Positions 26,034-48,934 of a stretch of 64,000 bases of DNA are shown piece by piece (positions within the stretch are counted from its first letter, which is position 1; each line of letters opens with the position of its first letter). The stretch spans positions 39,300 to 103,299 of the forward strand of contig PLYO01000002.1 of the NCBI GenBank assembly GCA_003151825.1. Direction: 5' to 3'. The stretch is from Ignavibacteriota bacterium (GTDB lineage Bacteria > Bacteroidota > Ignavibacteria > Palsa-1295). Both the position numbers and the translations under genes were made by a program. The notes beneath the pieces are model-generated. The model had not been told where the DNA came from and made no database searches. It saw nothing but the letters and a program-made list of their open reading frames with translations.

Positions 26034-29000
26034 ATGAAACTCGCATCGCATCGCATCGCATCGCATCGCATCGCATCGCATCGCATCGCATCGCAAGGTA
26101 ATGGAATAATCTCAAGAAAGTTCCTTTCCATGCTAACGTTTTGCGCGCTGCTCTTTTTCGGCCTCTCGGGGCTGCGGGCGCAATCGAATACGGAATATAA
26201 CTTTAACCAGCAGTCCCTCGTGGATGGACTTACTTATGGTTCAGATGGATTTACTCAGGTTTCAACTGACCCCGTGCCGATACTCACCATGGACTGCATC
26301 GCCGCCAACGGTTACGGGCAGTGGACGCTCACATCGTCCTGGGGTGGGAACGCTTCTAGCGGCGATTACACGCCCGGGTGGTACTTGCTGGAAAATGCGC
26401 TGCGCGAACCAGCCTCGTCTTTCGTCCTCAACGATCCAACTCACCCCGGCTGCCAACCGCCCGGTGTTGTGGAACATGGCATGCACACAACACTAAATTA
26501 TATTGCGCAAGGTAACGGGTGCGGCGGAGGAACCTACATTGCCTATGCACCCGTCGCTCCCAAAGCAGCCGCGAATCTCGACGGGTGGAATTGCTTCGTC
26601 TGGGTTGATTTGAACAATAATACCCCGCACCAGCGATTCGATATCGAATACTTCCGCCCGGCCGATCCGGCCGACATCGACATTTCACTCTCTGGATTTC
26701 CCGGTAATCTTCTGGATTATCAAGGTGGCACTCATGTCGTCAAGCATGACATCGAGCAGGACACTTTTTCAACAACGTTCCCACCCCCCATCCGCCACGA
26801 TGTTGTGGCCGAAAACGACCCCCGCGATGATTTCGACATTGCGATGGACGCCGAATACCTTTATATCACATGGTGTACGCTCAATGGAAATAAAGAAATT
26901 TGGGTTACCGCGATTCACCTATCGAACTTTACTACCGCGACGGGGTTTCCGATGCGGATCGACAATGGTCAATACCCCACTATCGCTTGCGATGTCAGAA
27001 ATAACAGGACTCCGGGCCAGCCTGCTTTTGACGTATGCTATTTGACTGTAGCCGGAGGGAATGTTAAGGCCAGAACATACAATGGCGGCTTTCTAAACCT
27101 CCTGCTGAACCCCCAGTGCTGGGATCCTATCCAGCCAAGGACACTCGACCCCCTGGCTGCCTATCATGCGCGAATAGTGGTCAGCAGCGCCGCCAATTCG
27201 CCAACGCCGGTCCGCTCGATTTATGTAATCGCGCAAGTGACCCCTCAAAATGGGACGGCCACGGCACAACGGCATCTTATCCTTTATAGCGAACTTAATA
27301 GCTCGGCGGCTAAGAATGCTATTTATGTGGATGGATCTTACATTCCAGCAACACCCGCTAACGTATTGTTAGCTGGCGCCACGCTTTCCGTTATTGACGA
27401 ACCGATCACTGCGTTCGCCAATCCTTACAACTTCTGGGACGAAAATTCCAACAACAACAATTCGTACGATCAATTTCATTGTGTTTATCGCTTAGAAGCG
27501 GACTATGCCAGTCCCACCCGCACCACTTATCCGCTTATGATTGTCGAGGGTTATGACAATGCCGCCCCGCAACCTTTTGCAGACCCAACGACGGATACGC
27601 GTTTAAATCTCAACGTAAATGGGCAGCAGGGCTTGCCGGCGCCCGCAAACGGATCTTCCTATGTTGCCGCCGTCAATCAAATGGGTATTCATGTACACTG
27701 GCGCTCAGGAACTGTTGGCGCCGGAACGGGAACCCATTTTTATGCGCGGGATGCAGGCCCAACAACAGCATCGGACGGCCATTACAGCCGTGCATTCGAC
27801 GAGCCAATCGAAGAGAATACACTCGTGACCGATCTGTGCTACGTGGCTGATAGTTTGACCCACGTTGGAACCTCGGGGGCGATGATCTTGCCTGGAAAGA
27901 CACTGACCATTTGGAGCGATCCCAATTATGCCAACAATGGGTTTTATCAGCCGCCGGTGCCGGGTCAGTGGGATTACGGGAACCCCAATCCTCCGGCCCC
28001 CCCCAATCCCGGCACGCTCAGCTTCGTCGATCCAAATGTTACATTGTGGGTTGGAGACGGCATCACGTTTGGCACCCCGAGTACAAATTCTACGCTGGCC
28101 GTCATGCCCAATTTTCAATTGATCTTCCAGGGCTATCCAGATGGCGAATTAACGTACAGCTCGCAGAGTGTGACCGTTCAGGCCGGCGCCACATTCAATT
28201 ATTATGGACTGGGTTACCATTACCCAAACGGTCCCCCTATAAATCCCCTTACAAATCCACCTACATTTGTCCCCGAGATTACCTGTGCGCCTATTGTCGG
28301 CAGCGAGGACCTCGCCATCGATGGCGCTGGAACTATTACGCTCAAGGGAACCGAGGCCTCTCCGGCTATCCTTAATATTGAGCCGGGAGCCGATATGGAC
28401 ATCCTCGAAGATGAGTTCCTGAAGAGTGGTGATCAAACAAATCCTTTAACAAGCCCCATGGAGGCTCAGATCAACTTGCTGTTTGGCATCACGATTCTAC
28501 CGACTCAGTTTATTCCCCCCGGGGAGCCAGGCAATGTATCCGGCGTTCTGACGATTGAAGGCGAAGGAATTCTTAACAACACGACCGTCACCAGCCAATT
28601 TCCATCCACAGTCGTGTCGAGCCAGGCGAATCCCTGGGGGTACGCTTTCTTGAATTACCCTCTCTATGTCCCATGCCCGCAATCCACCGATGGTCAAGGG
28701 AACCCCAATGGAAGCGACGAGTTAAATGATCCGCCGTTTCAACTAACGGCCACGAATTCGACTTTCCAAAACACTGGAGGCGGTACGGGAATTATTCGGT
28801 TCGATGGGAATAAGGAAGTAAATAGCGCCACCGCACCTCCATTCATACTTGCTTACAATGGAGTACTCTTTAGTGGCTGCACATTTACGAATTGCGCCAT
28901 TTCCGCCTGGGATCCACAGCCGAACGTTGGCAATTCGAATAAAATCCCTATCGTTTTGACGAACGATTTCTCCATTCAGGGATGTACCTTCACGGGACTC

Positions 29001-30824
29001 CGGCAAGTCAACACCATCGATATTCGCCGAATCGCGCTCAATACGTATGGAACGATTAATATCGGCGGCGTTGCAGCCAATACCTTCGACCCCATAGCTT
29101 TGACCGCAAATACGGCTTCGGGAACGACGGACATTTTCATTTCCGGGTTCAATACCATGGGGCAGGATGGAACTGGAATGTCGCAGGTTACCGTGGGAAA
29201 CAATACCTTAGAAAACGGGAATAGCACCGTGGGAATCGACTTCGAACAATCTGTTGGGAACGTTGAGGGGAATAGCGTATCGGGGAATTTCTCAATTGCA
29301 ATAGAGGACAATGGACCGATACCAGGGTTAGGCTTGCTGGACGATCATACCTTTATTTGTAGTAACTTCCTGACAAATTCCGGAGTAGGTATTGCTACCT
29401 CTGGATACGATGGATACCTAAAGTTGAATACAATCACAGGCGCTATGCAGGGCTATAATTCTGGATTGAATGGCAAATTTCCCGGTATGGTTGCAAATTC
29501 AATTACAGGAAGCGTAAATGAAGGTATTGTTGCAACGGGTGGTTTAGACATGAGTGGAATATTTCACTCTCCGAATCCGAATAATGAACCGAATTATGCC
29601 GGGTTCAATGTCGTAACCGGAAACTTTACAAGTTCCCGATCTACACCGCCTCCTGCGCAAATTACGTTGACAAGCAACCCCACTCAGGTTGGTTTCGACG
29701 ATTTCTTAGGTCTTTCTGAAAATCCGCTTGGCACTAACAACAACTCGAGCGATCTCGCCGATGCAGGTCAAAATAGTCTTGTCGGCGGAGGTGGTGGAAC
29801 TAACATTTTGATCGAGGGGGACGGTGAGACAGGACGCGACGTCTCAAATAATTGGTGGGGAGCAACAGGAGCGCCGGCCAGCTCAGTTATTCCTAATTTT
29901 AATTTTGCAAGTTCCTCAACGTTCACTTTGACCGGGCCACCCACTATACCGTTTTTCGAATGCGGGAGCCTGAACGATGTTACACATCGCAAAGGAAATG
30001 TGAAGCCACAAAGTGAGACTAACGATACGGCCTCATGCCTGACGTCGCTTGGCAATGGAAATTCTCTGTTGCAAGATGGTTATTACGATCAAGCATACGA
30101 CACAATGGAGAATTACATTCGGCAATGCTATCAACAAACTGGTGCTGGCGTATTTGGTATATACGGAGACGCTACGACGGACACTTGTCTGACGCCACAA
30201 GGAAGGGCAGCGACCAAAGCGTTCCTCTTATCAGTTCTTCCTCTGAGAACAGACGATCAGTGGTTCTGCGCGTGTGTTGGATGTCTTGCAAATTCTTTTC
30301 GACTCGATACCAATTACGATCGTGAAATAATGAGCCTTGCGAAATGGATCGCTGATAACCCTCGATGCTCGTATGAGTCAAGTCAAGTTCTTGCCGGTTA
30401 TTATAAGGAGCGCCATTATGATTCCAGCAATTGGGCAGATACGATGCACTACCCGGAAGTGTACGACTCCTCACTGCTTACGATGCAGCAAATGGGCTTA
30501 GATAGCGTGCTCATTATTGCGGCAACGGAGGGGGTGCAATACCAGCCCGGCGCATCGCAAATTATTTTAGATGCGCATATTACCGCCAACCCGTTTACGG
30601 AAGCTACCAATCTTTCGCTTCTCATCGGGCGGGAGGCATACATCCATATCGGGGTGTATAATCTTCTTGGCGAGCAAATAGCTGGCGCGGGCTATAACGG
30701 CACGTTCGAGCAGGGTTCCGCAATCGTTCCTATGAATTTGGATGCCTCGCCGCAGGGAATTTATTACGTCCGCATCCAAACCGCGAACAACGAAACTGAA
30801 ACGCTGAAATTGGTGAAGGAATGA
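26034..30824 (+). CDS. large secreted beta-helix-like protein with T9SS sorting domain; 5' end is a translated microsatellite
   Basis: MKL(ASHRI)4ASQGN before signal peptide MLTFCALLFFGLSGLRAQ; NNTxxGN beta-helix-like repeats; C-terminal ANPFTEATNLSLLI...GIYYVRIQTANNETETLKLVKE. Confidence 0.85.
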   Translation: MKLASHRIASHRIASHRIASQGNGIISRKFLSMLTFCALLFFGLSGLRAQSNTEYNFNQQSLVDGLTYGSDGFTQVSTDPVPILTMDCIAANGYGQWTLTSSWGGNASSGDYTPGWYLLENALREPASSFVLNDPTHPGCQPPGVVEHGMHTTLNYIAQGNGCGGGTYIAYAPVAPKAAANLDGWNCFVWVDLNNNTPHQRFDIEYFRPADPADIDISLSGFPGNLLDYQGGTHVVKHDIEQDTFSTTFPPPIRHDVVAENDPRDDFDIAMDAEYLYITWCTLNGNKEIWVTAIHLSNFTTATGFPMRIDNGQYPTIACDVRNNRTPGQPAFDVCYLTVAGGNVKARTYNGGFLNLLLNPQCWDPIQPRTLDPLAAYHARIVVSSAANSPTPVRSIYVIAQVTPQNGTATAQRHLILYSELNSSAAKNAIYVDGSYIPATPANVLLAGATLSVIDEPITAFANPYNFWDENSNNNNSYDQFHCVYRLEADYASPTRTTYPLMIVEGYDNAAPQPFADPTTDTRLNLNVNGQQGLPAPANGSSYVAAVNQMGIHVHWRSGTVGAGTGTHFYARDAGPTTASDGHYSRAFDEPIEENTLVTDLCYVADSLTHVGTSGAMILPGKTLTIWSDPNYANNGFYQPPVPGQWDYGNPNPPAPPNPGTLSFVDPNVTLWVGDGITFGTPSTNSTLAVMPNFQLIFQGYPDGELTYSSQSVTVQAGATFNYYGLGYHYPNGPPINPLTNPPTFVPEITCAPIVGSEDLAIDGAGTITLKGTEASPAILNIEPGADMDILEDEFLKSGDQTNPLTSPMEAQINLLFGITILPTQFIPPGEPGNVSGVLTIEGEGILNNTTVTSQFPSTVVSSQANPWGYAFLNYPLYVPCPQSTDGQGNPNGSDELNDPPFQLTATNSTFQNTGGGTGIIRFDGNKEVNSATAPPFILAYNGVLFSGCTFTNCAISAWDPQPNVGNSNKIPIVLTNDFSIQGCTFTGLRQVNTIDIRRIALNTYGTINIGGVAANTFDPIALTANTASGTTDIFISGFNTMGQDGTGMSQVTVGNNTLENGNSTVGIDFEQSVGNVEGNSVSGNFSIAIEDNGPIPGLGLLDDHTFICSNFLTNSGVGIATSGYDGYLKLNTITGAMQGYNSGLNGKFPGMVANSITGSVNEGIVATGGLDMSGIFHSPNPNNEPNYAGFNVVTGNFTSSRSTPPPAQITLTSNPTQVGFDDFLGLSENPLGTNNNSSDLADAGQNSLVGGGGGTNILIEGDGETGRDVSNNWWGATGAPASSVIPNFNFASSSTFTLTGPPTIPFFECGSLNDVTHRKGNVKPQSETNDTASCLTSLGNGNSLLQDGYYDQAYDTMENYIRQCYQQTGAGVFGIYGDATTDTCLTPQGRAATKAFLLSVLPLRTDDQWFCACVGCLANSFRLDTNYDREIMSLAKWIADNPRCSYESSQVLAGYYKERHYDSSNWADTMHYPEVYDSSLLTMQQMGLDSVLIIAATEGVQYQPGASQIILDAHITANPFTEATNLSLLIGREAYIHIGVYNLLGEQIAGAGYNGTFEQGSAIVPMNLDASPQGIYYVRIQTANNETETLKLVKE
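26041..26095. repeat. pentanucleotide microsatellite (TCGCA)x11
   Basis: Eleven perfect tandem TCGCA units immediately after ATGAAAC. Confidence 0.98.
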
Positions 30825-31966
30825 AAAAATTAATCATCGTATCGCTTTTTCTGCTCGCTGGCCATCGCGCCAGCGGGCAGCTTGCCGTCGCGGGAGAGAA
30901 TACCATATTAACTAATAGCCCGGAACCTATTCTCGTCAATGGGCCATCGACCGCTCCTGCAAATCCGGTGGACATTTCAAACAATTGGTGGGGTCACCAT
31001 CCTCCGCCATTAGGATGGAATAACAATTACGTTTCCGGAACGAATTTTACATCAGGCTCGACATTTCTTTCCTCTAAGCCAAGCCGCCCCTTTTTCGATT
31101 GTGGAAGCCTTTTTGATTTAGCCGGAAGGAAAGGGAATGTGCCTCAGAGCTTGCAAGATGCCAACGATTCGCCATGTTCATACGCACTGGGAGCCAGTGA
31201 GGGTCTGGTAACCGATGGCCTATATGATCAGGCGTACGATTCAGCATGTTATTATCTAAGCCATTGCTACTACCAGGCCAACGCTACCGAAGGTTTCGGC
31301 GCATTGGCATCCGCAGGCGTTGATACTATCGAAACCCAAATAGGCTGTACTTCACTCAGGAGTTTTCTTCTATCCGTTCTTCCTTTGAGGAGCGATGATG
31401 ACTGGTTCTGTCACTGCGTTCTCGATCTAAGTGGAACTTTCTTCGAGGATACTAACAGTAATCGAGAATATATGAGCTTATTATACTGGCTTATGAATAA
31501 TCCCCGTTGCGCTGCGTATCAAGCCGGAATTGCGGCCAGTTATTATCAAGAGCGTAAAGACGATTACCACCTGTGGCAGGATACCATGCACTACCCGGAA
31601 AAATACGACTCTTCCCTGCTTACGATGCAGCAAATGGGGCTGGATAGCGTGTTAATCATTGCGGCAACGGAGGGGGTAACGTACCAGCCGGGCGCTTCGC
31701 AAATTATTTTAGATGCGCATATCACTTCGAACCCATTTACGAATGAGACAAACGTTTCCCTCCTTATCGGGCGGGAGGCATACATCCATATCGGGGTGTA
31801 TAATCTTCTTGGCGAGCAAATAGCCGGCGCGGGGTACAACGGTACATTCGAGCAAGGCTCGGCAATAATTCCCATAAATTTAGATGCCGCTCCGCCGGGA
31901 ATTTATTACGTCCGCATCCAAACCGCAAACAATGAAACTGAAACGCTGAAATTGGTGAAGGAATGA
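30821..31966 (+). CDS. secreted protein: tandem copy of the C-terminal module of 26034..30824, T9SS sorting domain
   Basis: ATGA overlap; shares NNWWG...YDQAYDSACYYLSHCYY...LSVLPLRSDDDWFCHCV...TMQQMGLDSVL module. Confidence 0.85.
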   Translation: MKKLIIVSLFLLAGHRASGQLAVAGENTILTNSPEPILVNGPSTAPANPVDISNNWWGHHPPPLGWNNNYVSGTNFTSGSTFLSSKPSRPFFDCGSLFDLAGRKGNVPQSLQDANDSPCSYALGASEGLVTDGLYDQAYDSACYYLSHCYYQANATEGFGALASAGVDTIETQIGCTSLRSFLLSVLPLRSDDDWFCHCVLDLSGTFFEDTNSNREYMSLLYWLMNNPRCAAYQAGIAASYYQERKDDYHLWQDTMHYPEKYDSSLLTMQQMGLDSVLIIAATEGVTYQPGASQIILDAHITSNPFTNETNVSLLIGREAYIHIGVYNLLGEQIAGAGYNGTFEQGSAIIPINLDAAPPGIYYVRIQTANNETETLKLVKE

Positions 31967-33105
31967 AAAAATTAATCATCGTATCGCTTTTTCTGCTCGC
32001 TGGCCATCGCGCCAGCGGGCAGCTTGCCGTCGCGGGAGAAAATACGATCTTAACTACCAGCCCGGAACCAATTCTCGTCAATGGACCTTCGACCGGCCCG
32101 ACAAATCCTGTTGATATTTCCAATAATTGGCGGGGAGCAAGTACTCCTCCCGCTGGAGCATTTGTAAGCTTTGCTGGCGCCAGTGGCTCAACATTCACGC
32201 TGACGGGGCCACCACCTTCAGCATCTTCGTTCCTCGTTTGTGGCAGCCTGAACGATGTGGCAGGACACAAAGCAATATCGACCCAAAGTATGCAGGATGC
32301 CAACGATTCATCTTGCAATCACACTATTGGAATGGCTTATTCATTGGTAACCGATGGATTCTACGATCAAGCTTATGACTCAGCCTGCTATTACCTTAGC
32401 CACTGCTATTACCAATCAGAGGCCGTTGAAGGATTCGGTGCGTTGGGTGATGCAGCTGTAGATACGACACTTACCCCAATAGGCCGTACATCCATGAGGA
32501 GCTTTCTCTTATCTGTTCTTCCTCTTAGAACCGATGATGATTGGTTTTGCCATTGTGTAAATGCTATCGGGGCTTCATTCCGTGAAGATACAAATCAAGA
32601 TAGGGAGGGGTTGAGCCTATTATATTGGCTTATCAATAATCCTCGTTGTGCTGCCTATCAAGCGGGATATGAAGTTGGTTATACAAATGAGCGCAAGCTC
32701 GATTCCAGCAATTGGGCAGACACGATGCACTACCCGGAAGTGTACGACTCATCGCTGCTTACGATGCAGCAAATGGGGCTGGATACGGTGCTAAAAATCT
32801 CCGCGAACGAGGGCGTGCAAGAAGATGCAATTGGAACACAAATTATTCTTGATGCGCATATTACTTCGAACCCGTTTACGAATGCGACGAATGTATCGCT
32901 ATTAATCGGTCGGGAGGCGTGGGTAACGATCGGGGTGTATAATCTACTTGGGCAACAAATTGCCGGCGCGGGCTACAACGGCACATTCGAGCAAGGTTCC
33001 TCAATCATTCCCATAAATTTGGATGCCGCTCCGCAGGGAATATATTACATCCGCATCACAACCGCAAACAACGAAACGCAGACGCTGAAATTGGTGAAGG
33101 AATAA
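31963..33105 (+). CDS. secreted protein: second tandem copy of the C-terminal module, T9SS sorting domain
   Basis: ATGA overlap; first ~78 nt identical to the start of 30821..31966. Confidence 0.85.
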   Translation: MKKLIIVSLFLLAGHRASGQLAVAGENTILTTSPEPILVNGPSTGPTNPVDISNNWRGASTPPAGAFVSFAGASGSTFTLTGPPPSASSFLVCGSLNDVAGHKAISTQSMQDANDSSCNHTIGMAYSLVTDGFYDQAYDSACYYLSHCYYQSEAVEGFGALGDAAVDTTLTPIGRTSMRSFLLSVLPLRTDDDWFCHCVNAIGASFREDTNQDREGLSLLYWLINNPRCAAYQAGYEVGYTNERKLDSSNWADTMHYPEVYDSSLLTMQQMGLDTVLKISANEGVQEDAIGTQIILDAHITSNPFTNATNVSLLIGREAWVTIGVYNLLGQQIAGAGYNGTFEQGSSIIPINLDAAPQGIYYIRITTANNETQTLKLVKE

Positions 33106-44136: not shown

Positions 44137-46146
44137 ATGATTACCATTATTGGCGGCGGCTTCTCGGGCCTTTCCGCCGCATATTTTCTCCACCGCGCGG
44201 GTAAAGACGTAACGCTCCTCGAATGGTCACGCAGCCTCGGCGGCCGCGCCTCGACGCGCAATGTCGGCTACCGGACAATGGATTCCGGCGCGCAGCGCAT
44301 CGATCTATCCCCGCTCGCGTCCAATCAGCTTGAGACCAACGCTCGCGCTTTGCTGCGCGCCGTGGCGATCGAGCGCGGAGTGCTGCAACATGCTCTCCCG
44401 TTTCCATCGCCGGTCTTCCGCTTCGATGGACGTTCCATTCAGACGGCCCATGAGGTCGAAGTACCGAACTGGTCCTATCTCGAAGGCGGGATGAATGTCC
44501 TGGCCGACGCCTTAGTCAAGGATATTTCGGTGCGCACCCATACGCGCATCAGCGATATTGTGATCGAAAAGGATGGCTATCAACTCCGCAATCAACGCGG
44601 CGAGATCACGCCGTCGGAAGGCGTCGTCATTGCGCTGCCGGCTCCCTACGCGCTGGCACTCTTGCTGCCCCACGCGGAGAAAAACAAAAAAATCAAGCGG
44701 ATTACCGATCTCTTTAACGATGTAAATTACGAGCCGATGATCGGCGCCATGTTCGGCACGACGAAAATTGACTTTCGCGAGCCGTTCACTTCCCTCTTCA
44801 CCGACGATGTGACCGCGCCGATTTTCTGGCTTTCGCAGGAAAGCCGACGCCGGCCGCTCGGCATTCGCAAGAACGAAATGGCGTTCGTGCTCCAGCTTGG
44901 AGCCGAAATCAGCCGCGATTACGTACTCAAAAGCGATAAAGAAACCTTCGTTGCTGTCGAGCGCGTGTTCGAGGAAGTGCTCGATGTCGCGCTACCGGAT
45001 ATTGTCTATGGCGAAATCCAGCGCTGGCCGGCGGCATTTCTTTCGTCCTCGCCATTTACGGTCGATACGATAAAAGAGGACGAGTTCAAAGTGCCGCTGT
45101 ATCTCGCCGGGGATTACATCGCCGGCCAAAGCTCGATGGCATCCGCATTCTGGAGCGGCAAGCAAATCGCCGACCGATTAGTGGGCGTCGATACATTCCA
45201 GTTTATCGAAAATCCCGTGCGTGAGCAAGCGCGGCTTGCCGAAGAAGAATGGAAAGCCGTTATTCCACCGGCGCCCGCACCACGGAAAGCTCCGAAGTCG
45301 GCACACAAACACGCCAATAAAAAATACGACGCGGAAAAAGGAAAGCGCGTCTATGTCGCGCCCGAGAAAAGAGGAAAAGAAAAATTGGGCAGACCCTACG
45401 GCTCGCGGCCTCAAGGACAGGGTCGCGCACCAAGACGCGGAGGGCCACCGCCGCGCCGTGGCGCGCCGCGCCAGGGCGGTTGGCAGCAAGGACCACGGCA
45501 GCAATCCGCGCGACCGAGGCAAGGACAGCGCTCGCAGCCTTACGCGCAGCGCGGGCCATCGCAATATGGCGGACAAGGTTACGCGCCCCGCGAAGGTTAC
45601 GCGCCGCGCGGACCGGCACGTCCGTATGGAAATCAAGATCAGGCGCGCCCCTATGGCCAGCAGGAGCAGGGACGCTCCTACGGTCAGCGTTCTGGCCCGG
45701 GTGGGCCACGCGCTCCGAGGCCGGGCAGACAGGAAAGGCAATACGGCGATCAAGGACAAGGCCGATCCTACGGTCAGGGTCAGGGACAAGGACGGTCTTA
45801 CGGTCAAGGCCAGGGACAAGGGAGATCGTACGGTCAGGGAGGCCAGGGGCAAGGATATGGACAAGGTCGCCCACAACGCCCGCGTCCGCAGGGCGAACGA
45901 TCGAACAATTACGGTAGCGGCGGCGCGCCCTATCGCCAACCCAGAGATAGCAACGGCCCGCCTTCGCAAGGTGGCAGGCAATATGGAAGCCGCAGTGGCC
46001 AGCAGCAGAACGTATATTCCACTAACGTTCGCCCGCAGCGAGACCGCGGCGGATACGAACCGACTCAGCCACGCACGAGCGGCTTCGAAAGCCCCGCGCC
46101 ACGCCGACCGAGACGCCCTGAGGACGATTCGATCGGGAACCGGTAG
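44137..46146 (+). CDS. FAD-dependent amine oxidase-like protein with long low-complexity RG/YGQ-rich C-terminal tail
   Basis: MITIIGGGFSGLSAAYFLHRAGKDVTLLEWSRSLGGRASTR Rossmann motif; tail GQGRSYGQGQGQGRSYGQ. Confidence 0.85.
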   Translation: MITIIGGGFSGLSAAYFLHRAGKDVTLLEWSRSLGGRASTRNVGYRTMDSGAQRIDLSPLASNQLETNARALLRAVAIERGVLQHALPFPSPVFRFDGRSIQTAHEVEVPNWSYLEGGMNVLADALVKDISVRTHTRISDIVIEKDGYQLRNQRGEITPSEGVVIALPAPYALALLLPHAEKNKKIKRITDLFNDVNYEPMIGAMFGTTKIDFREPFTSLFTDDVTAPIFWLSQESRRRPLGIRKNEMAFVLQLGAEISRDYVLKSDKETFVAVERVFEEVLDVALPDIVYGEIQRWPAAFLSSSPFTVDTIKEDEFKVPLYLAGDYIAGQSSMASAFWSGKQIADRLVGVDTFQFIENPVREQARLAEEEWKAVIPPAPAPRKAPKSAHKHANKKYDAEKGKRVYVAPEKRGKEKLGRPYGSRPQGQGRAPRRGGPPPRRGAPRQGGWQQGPRQQSARPRQGQRSQPYAQRGPSQYGGQGYAPREGYAPRGPARPYGNQDQARPYGQQEQGRSYGQRSGPGGPRAPRPGRQERQYGDQGQGRSYGQGQGQGRSYGQGQGQGRSYGQGGQGQGYGQGRPQRPRPQGERSNNYGSGGAPYRQPRDSNGPPSQGGRQYGSRSGQQQNVYSTNVRPQRDRGGYEPTQPRTSGFESPAPRRPRRPEDDSIGNR

Positions 46147-46255
46147 GGATTAATTACGAATGACGAATTACAAATTACGAATGGGGGAGAAATCTCTCAT
46201 TCGTGATTTGCCATGAGGTTTCCCTCAAGGTCATTCATATTTACCCCACCCTGCG

Positions 46256-47929: not shown

Positions 47930-48934
47930 ATGGTTCCTATTAAAGTATGTAGCATTGTCATTTTTGCATTTTTAACTTTCGTCTGCGGAGCGCCACTTCA
48001 CGCGCAGTGGGTGCAAACGAATGGGCCGAATGTGGGTCCTAGAGCTGTCATTGCCCTTGCTGTGAGCGGCACGAATCTCTTTGCCGGGGCTTCCTTCGAC
48101 GGCGTTTATCGCTCGACCGACAACGGCACAAGCTGGACGGAGGACACTGCCGGCATGGGAGCGCAATACGTCGCTGCCCTTGCGGTGATCGGCGCGAATC
48201 TCTTTGCCGGGACTTTCTACGGCGTTTATCTCTCGACCGACAACGGCACAAACTGGACTGCGGTCAATAGTGGCTTAACGAACGATACAGTAATAACCCT
48301 CGCGGTGATCGGCTTGAATCTATTTGCAGGGACTCAAAGCGGCGGTGTTTTTCTCTCGACCGACAACGGCATAAGCTGGAGGGCGGCGAGTACCGGATTG
48401 CCAGCGAACGCAGAAGTCAATGCCTTTGCGGTGATCGGCACGAATCTCTTTGCCGAGGCTATTAAAGAGAATGGGGGACATATTAATGGCGGTGGTGTTT
48501 TTATTTCGACGAACAATGGCGATTCCTGGGACTCGGCGAGTACCGGTTTGAACGCTTATGTCAATGCCCTTGCGGTGAGCGGCACGAATATCTTTGCCGG
48601 GGATGATGTAGGCGTCGTCTGGCGGCGCCCACTTTTGGATTTCGGAATTAGCGCCGTTGCCCAAGCACCGCCGATGCGCGATGCCATCCGCAGCTATCCC
48701 AATCCCTTCTCGCAATCTACGGAGATCGCGTTTACCTCTGCCACTGCGGGCTATGCGGAGGTATCGGTGGTGAATATCTTGGGTGTAGAGGCTGCGCATC
48801 TGTTTTCCGGCGAGTTAGAAGCCGGGAATCATTCCTTCGCGTGGGATGCACAGGGGATGGCGCAGGGAAGTTATTGGTGCATCGTCCGCATGGGCGGAAG
48901 CGTGGAGCGGATCGCACTATCGATCGAGCGGTAA
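47930..48934 (+). CDS. secreted repeat (YCF48/BNR-like) protein with T9SS sorting domain
   Basis: Repeats AVIGTNLFAGTxxGVxLSTDNGTSW; IRSYPNPFSQSTEIAF...SVERIALSIER. Confidence 0.82.
   Translation: MVPIKVCSIVIFAFLTFVCGAPLHAQWVQTNGPNVGPRAVIALAVSGTNLFAGASFDGVYRSTDNGTSWTEDTAGMGAQYVAALAVIGANLFAGTFYGVYLSTDNGTNWTAVNSGLTNDTVITLAVIGLNLFAGTQSGGVFLSTDNGISWRAASTGLPANAEVNAFAVIGTNLFAEAIKENGGHINGGGVFISTNNGDSWDSASTGLNAYVNALAVSGTNIFAGDDVGVVWRRPLLDFGISAVAQAPPMRDAIRSYPNPFSQSTEIAFTSATAGYAEVSVVNILGVEAAHLFSGELEAGNHSFAWDAQGMAQGSYWCIVRMGGSVERIALSIER

Follow-up and report, generated by a model that had tools for sequence, protein, structure and literature searches.

The flavoenzyme gene and its tail

The window analyzed here is a stretch of 64,000 nucleotides from an Ignavibacteriota bacterium, and at 44137-46146 on its forward strand lies a single frame, running from ATG to TAG and coding for 669 amino acids, in which a flavoenzyme domain is joined to a long tail. 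The interval first annotated, 45255-46146, is the 3' part of this gene, the features of which, with the supporting evidence in parentheses, are as follows:

44137..46146, +: whole gene, renalase-like flavoenzyme with a C-terminal low-complexity tail, 669 aa (ORF, Pfam, neighbourhood comparison)
44137..45246, +: FAD domain, aa 1-370, predicted renalase-like fold (Pfam, alignment, profile search, AF2 model); motifs GGGxxGL (aa 6-12, dinucleotide-binding), SRxLGGR (31-37), D-x-G-x-Q (49-53), PxFWLS (228-233) and GD (325-326)
45247..45384, +: Lys/Arg-rich linker, aa 371-416, WKAVIPP...KKYDAEKGKRV...EKRGKEK (alignable in 11/11 orthologues; W372 and P377 invariant, n=11)
45385..46011, +: low-complexity, Arg/Gly/Gln/Pro/Tyr-rich disordered tail, aa 417-625 (composition, AF2, orthologue alignment)
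45575..45610, +: 18-bp direct repeat, two copies, coding for (E/Q)GYAPR (Tandem Repeats Finder)
45750..45839, +: 30-bp tandem array, three copies, coding for GQGRSYGQGQ (Tandem Repeats Finder)
46012..46035, +: VYSTNVRP motif, aa 626-633 (present in 7/7 genus members)
46117..46143, +: acidic C-terminal motif EDDSIGNR, D/E-rich then GN[RQ] (kept in 11/11 orthologues)

The initial annotation had read the first ~370 residues as an FAD-dependent oxidoreductase, and residues 1-348 indeed match the Pfam families Amino_oxidase and NAD_binding_8 (E 3e-21). Its more specific label of flavin amine oxidase can be sharpened, as a domain profile built from the 11 orthologues matched the Pseudomonas renalase structures 4zcc (3e-20, positions 2-348 of 369) and 3kkj (1e-17, positions 2-348), while the next-best matches listed after the renalases reached 2e-7 and spanned the first 40-65 residues only. 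In a fold search with an AlphaFold2 model, built from the 11-sequence alignment and of moderate confidence over the domain, the first seven matches were all renalases (target-normalized TM 0.76-0.81), and human renalase gave a TM of about 0.70. Because profile and fold both match renalases best, we regard the domain as renalase-like, with homology extending over the PHBH-fold FAD domain and the substrate domain, and with the FAD motifs GxGxxG, SRGxGGR and the C-terminal GD unchanged or almost unchanged across the 11 orthologues; in the window copy, Ser33 replaces the glycine of SRG. Pseudomonas renalase (PDB 4zcc/4zcd/5krq/3kkj), a dihydro-NAD(P) oxidase, shares GxGxxGL, SRGxGGR, DxGAQ and PxxWL with the present enzyme, but has no disordered tail of ~300 residues, and when aligned lacks both the NQRGE loop (aa 152-156), invariant in the orthologue family, and further residues fixed there. 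Renalases convert 1,2- and 1,6-dihydro-NAD(P) into NAD(P)+ by oxidation (PMC7660482). Identity of the domain to renalase is low (~23-26%), and its substrate may therefore differ.

The tail proper comprises residues ~373-669 (45253-46143) and in the window copy consists of 19% G, 15% R, 14% Q, 13% P, 7% Y and 7% S, with AF2 pLDDT at about 30 from residue 407 onward, so that the long, disordered R/G/Q/Y/P-rich extension described in the initial annotation is confirmed, as are the motifs quoted there: GQGRSYGQ occurs three times (aa 540-569), next to RGGPPPRRG and a YAPRG that forms part of YAPRE-GYAPRG. Clustering of RGG or RG is weak in this copy, with only two RGG and six RG; across nine orthologues each tail has 1-6 RGG and 2-10 RG. 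Pfam recognized the flavoenzyme domain alone in all 11 members, and neither a tail domain nor an RNA-binding domain. The tail was also said to be unusual for an oxidoreductase, and it is. It exceeds what chance would give, in that every orthologue has one and the ORF at 44137-46146 was the only one to pass a compositional filter for such tails in 263 kb of this genome, made up of the window and ten further stretches on which the claim of rarity rests. Searching the tail against its own genome (E<=1) matched its own gene alone, although low-complexity bias could mask others. As to codon usage within the gene, GGC accounts for 19/25 Gly codons of the domain, whereas the tail mixes GGA, GGC, GGT and GGG, and AGA and AGG are used for Arg in the tail only.

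Resemblance to a FUS/EWS-like SYGQ region, as first proposed, holds loosely. Like FUS, EWS and TAF15, the tail mixes Tyr/Gln/Gly repeats with Arg/Gly and is predicted to be disordered, but the bacterial protein is Ser-poor (7%) and Pro-rich, with G, R, Q and P all exceeding S and Y, carries Arg throughout the tail and has no homology to these proteins. Where members of the FET family combine an RRM and a RanBP2-type zinc finger with the SYGQ region, only the flavoenzyme domain was found here (11/11).

A recent internal expansion of the DNA repeats had been suggested as well, but the evidence argues against a very recent one, because adjacent copies differ almost only synonymously: aa 540-549 and 550-559 are separated by five synonymous and no non-synonymous differences. 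The third GQGRSYGQ copy also carries one amino-acid difference, and codons across the 30-bp array show mixed synonymous usage. Duplication at some earlier point did produce the copies, though. Two other frames overlap the tail, a 310-aa ORF in frame +2 (45221-46153) and a 267-aa antisense ORF (45178-45981, -). They are open because the GGN, CAR and CGN codons yield few stops there, and a second gene in either frame was rejected, this openness being compositional (0-3 stops in frame +2 in 11/11 genomes).

Conservation of the fusion within one family

Among the 100 nearest genomes surveyed, strong full-domain matches (48-88% identity) placed an orthologue in 6/6 further genomes from the genus and 4/6 others from the family; the two family genomes without one are 67% complete. 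Each of these ten orthologues has a frame of 618-721 aa with a comparable in-frame tail, and together with the window copy they span three genera of one Kapabacteria-type family, the public records of these relatives being labelled Bacteroidetes, Ignavibacteriae or Candidatus Kapaibacterium and coming from several independent assemblies. The initial annotation had proposed looking for orthologues without a tail and for a frameshift or assembly error: all 11 orthologues found are tailed, and the architecture, encoded in one frame, recurs in independent assemblies. In a class sample of 391 genomes, matches at a threshold of 1e-15 were found in these 11 only and none lay outside the family. In a phylum sample of 396 genomes, ten others matched weakly (1e-10 to 1e-13), with frames of 334-406 aa; the seven of these Bacteroidota homologues that we read, all from outside the family, stop at the enzyme domain, and a search of contigs beyond the family returned short N-terminal Rossmann matches only. 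Our search found no literature on such tails in Kapabacteria.

Across the 11 members the tail measures 230-327 residues, has a net charge per residue of +0.11 to +0.18, contains no Cys and 6-12 residues of I, L, V or M, and is 6-10% aromatic. Repeat motifs differ between genera, GRSYGQ being limited to this species and its nearest relatives while other genera carry GGGYQ/GGYRDRNQGG, and the conserved property is therefore composition and charge. In the other two genera a VYQT or VFQT resembling VYSTNVRP is placed further upstream within the tail. Between close pairs synonymous sites are saturated (pS 0.73-0.82), against a pN of 0.11-0.33. In the L009/L010 pair the tails are 83% identical with a dN/dS of about 0.05, like the enzyme domains of other pairs, whereas the tail evolves faster than the domain in L002/L003, L002/L004 and L003/L004; these tail values are rough, as the alignments are repetitive and dS is saturated. 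A simulated unconstrained tail at 34-81% identity acquired a mean of 4-13 stops and 7-18% hydrophobics, compared with no stops observed, which, with plain random mutation and the window tail as single starting sequence, shows only that selection keeps frame and composition. Since 11/11 members are tailed, their divergence is biased to synonymous sites and the outside relatives read are domain-only, we conclude that the tailed fusion is specific to this lineage, old and under selection. It is real, conserved and unusual, even if each of its components belongs to a known kind.

RNA-binding proteins of the same genomes and possible roles of the tail

Across the family the gene has no conserved partner beside it, nor an RNA-metabolism operon partner. 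Upstream lie genes for a T9SS-sorted BNR protein, a membrane protein and a HisA-like protein, which are divergent and partly kept within the genus, and the downstream genes vary between genomes. As the neighbours are inconsistent, operon logic was dropped and nothing was inferred from it; sigma-70 and terminator scans at the locus were uninformative.

The same genomes do encode RRM (RNP-1) proteins of the Bacteroides RbpB type with disordered C-terminal tails of the RGG/GGYGG/GRSYG kind, as here, although in these the folded part is an RRM and the tail ~20-60 residues long, against a flavoenzyme and ~230-330 residues in our case. Three are present in this genome, two with RGG/GGYGG tails and the third ending in GRSYGNRRGWW; this and the sister genomes have 2-4 each, many with RGG/GGYGG tails. 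RRM proteins occur in 12/13 family genomes, the exception being a 67%-complete genome, and in only 2/14 control genomes. The types, parsed for 24/30, split into RGG-tailed and GRSYGN-ended proteins. In the second type the end is near-invariant, TD(T/I)(S/T)GR(S/T)YGNR(R/N)GWW (L132, L156, L158, L168, L171, L175-L177, L179), and GRSYG is common to this end and to the flavoenzyme tail repeats. DEAD-box helicases were also considered as similarly tailed and set aside, since the three frames read showed one short, basic Q/R-rich end and no comparable long tail. A survey of bacteria tied RG/GR low-complexity domains to RNA helicase activity and to RNA metabolism (PMC11132505).

In the explanation we favor, to which we would give about an even chance, a cytoplasmic renalase-like flavoenzyme is tethered to RNA/RNP assemblies through its multivalent disordered tail, with RNA/RNP binding, self-association, condensation and substrate all being predictions. 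A renalase-like enzyme would have gained a permanent disordered, basic tail rich in Arg, Tyr, Gln and Gly; the tail would make many weak Arg- and Tyr-mediated contacts with RNA and/or with the similar tails of RNA-binding proteins, and such contacts would concentrate the flavoenzyme in RNA-protein assemblies. VYSTNVRP and the acidic terminus might act as docking or self-masking elements, and the domain, judging from homology, probably oxidizes a small aromatic substrate, of the reduced nicotinamide type or otherwise, in renalase fashion. Since proteins with RRMs and RGG tails co-occur and RG domains are tied to RNA metabolism, an RNP tether strikes us as the most economical reading. Speaking against it, the window copy is low in RGG/RG and has neither an RNA-binding domain nor an RNA-metabolism operon partner, and a basic disordered tail could instead bind DNA, polyphosphate or membranes, or serve as a solubility tag.

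Distinctly less probable is a tail that serves as a generic basic disordered appendage, for solubility, for protection against stress or desiccation, or for binding DNA and other polyanions nonspecifically, with no specific RNA or condensate role. Composition rather than sequence is kept across genera, Pfam knows no tail domain and the RGG count is low, all as this would predict; yet VYSTNVRP and the acidic GN[RQ] terminus are position-specific (7/7 genus members and 11/11 orthologues, respectively), close pairs are under strong purifying selection, and Arg and Tyr with little Lys typify RNA/RNP-type tails and not generic polycations.

We hold as doubtful the more ambitious proposal that a flavoenzyme targeted to RNA or RNP condensates has become fixed in one family, its FUS/RGG-type tail delivering redox chemistry to RNA-protein assemblies or to RNA itself. 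In the same phylum, Rho of Bacteroides thetaiotaomicron is an enzyme whose disordered region drives condensates (PMC13269538); in the present enzyme the disorder is a prediction, and Rho is itself an RNA-binding helicase, whereas no link to RNA is known for the flavoenzyme. Improbable in our judgment is an RNA-directed redox enzyme, in which the tail would bring the flavin oxidoreductase to nucleic-acid substrates, either RNA or RNA-bound material: the NQRGE loop and other fixed residues that set this family apart from Pseudomonas renalase, together with a fusion obligate within the lineage, are in its favor, but the closest relatives use free dihydro-NAD(P) isomers (PMC7660482).

A functionless by-product of GC-rich repeat expansion read in frame is very improbable, for in spite of the DNA repeats and the fairly open, compositionally explained other frames, all 11 orthologues are tailed with synonymous-biased divergence and zero stops where the unconstrained simulation loses the frame, and the repeats use mixed synonymous codons. 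A sequencing or assembly artefact or frameshift, conceivable since the assembly is in several contigs and its contamination is estimated at 6.6%, is refuted by the same architecture in independent assemblies from several projects.

Descriptions of bacterial metabolic enzymes fused to long disordered tails of the RNA-binding type are rare, RG-rich regions in bacteria being usually linked to helicases or RNA metabolism. Because the fusion is obligate across the family, it offers a natural test of bacterial redox-enzyme targeting to RNA or condensates, for which the untailed homologues of the same phylum are the controls.

Other features of the window

A 1596-aa ORF (26034-30824), the end of which resembles a type IX secretion sorting tail, contains a perfect (TCGCA)x11 pentanucleotide repeat (26041-26095) that starts 7 bases past its ATG and precedes the signal peptide. 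The ORF is arranged like a phase-variable (contingency) gene and can be considered a candidate. Adjoining it at 30821-33102 is a tandem pair of ORFs, 381 and 380 aa long, that are identical over their first 30 residues, the product of a recent tandem duplication. Finally, at 48054-48455, a 120-bp tandem repeat (x3.3) is found inside a BNR-repeat protein that weakly matches Por_Secre_tail.
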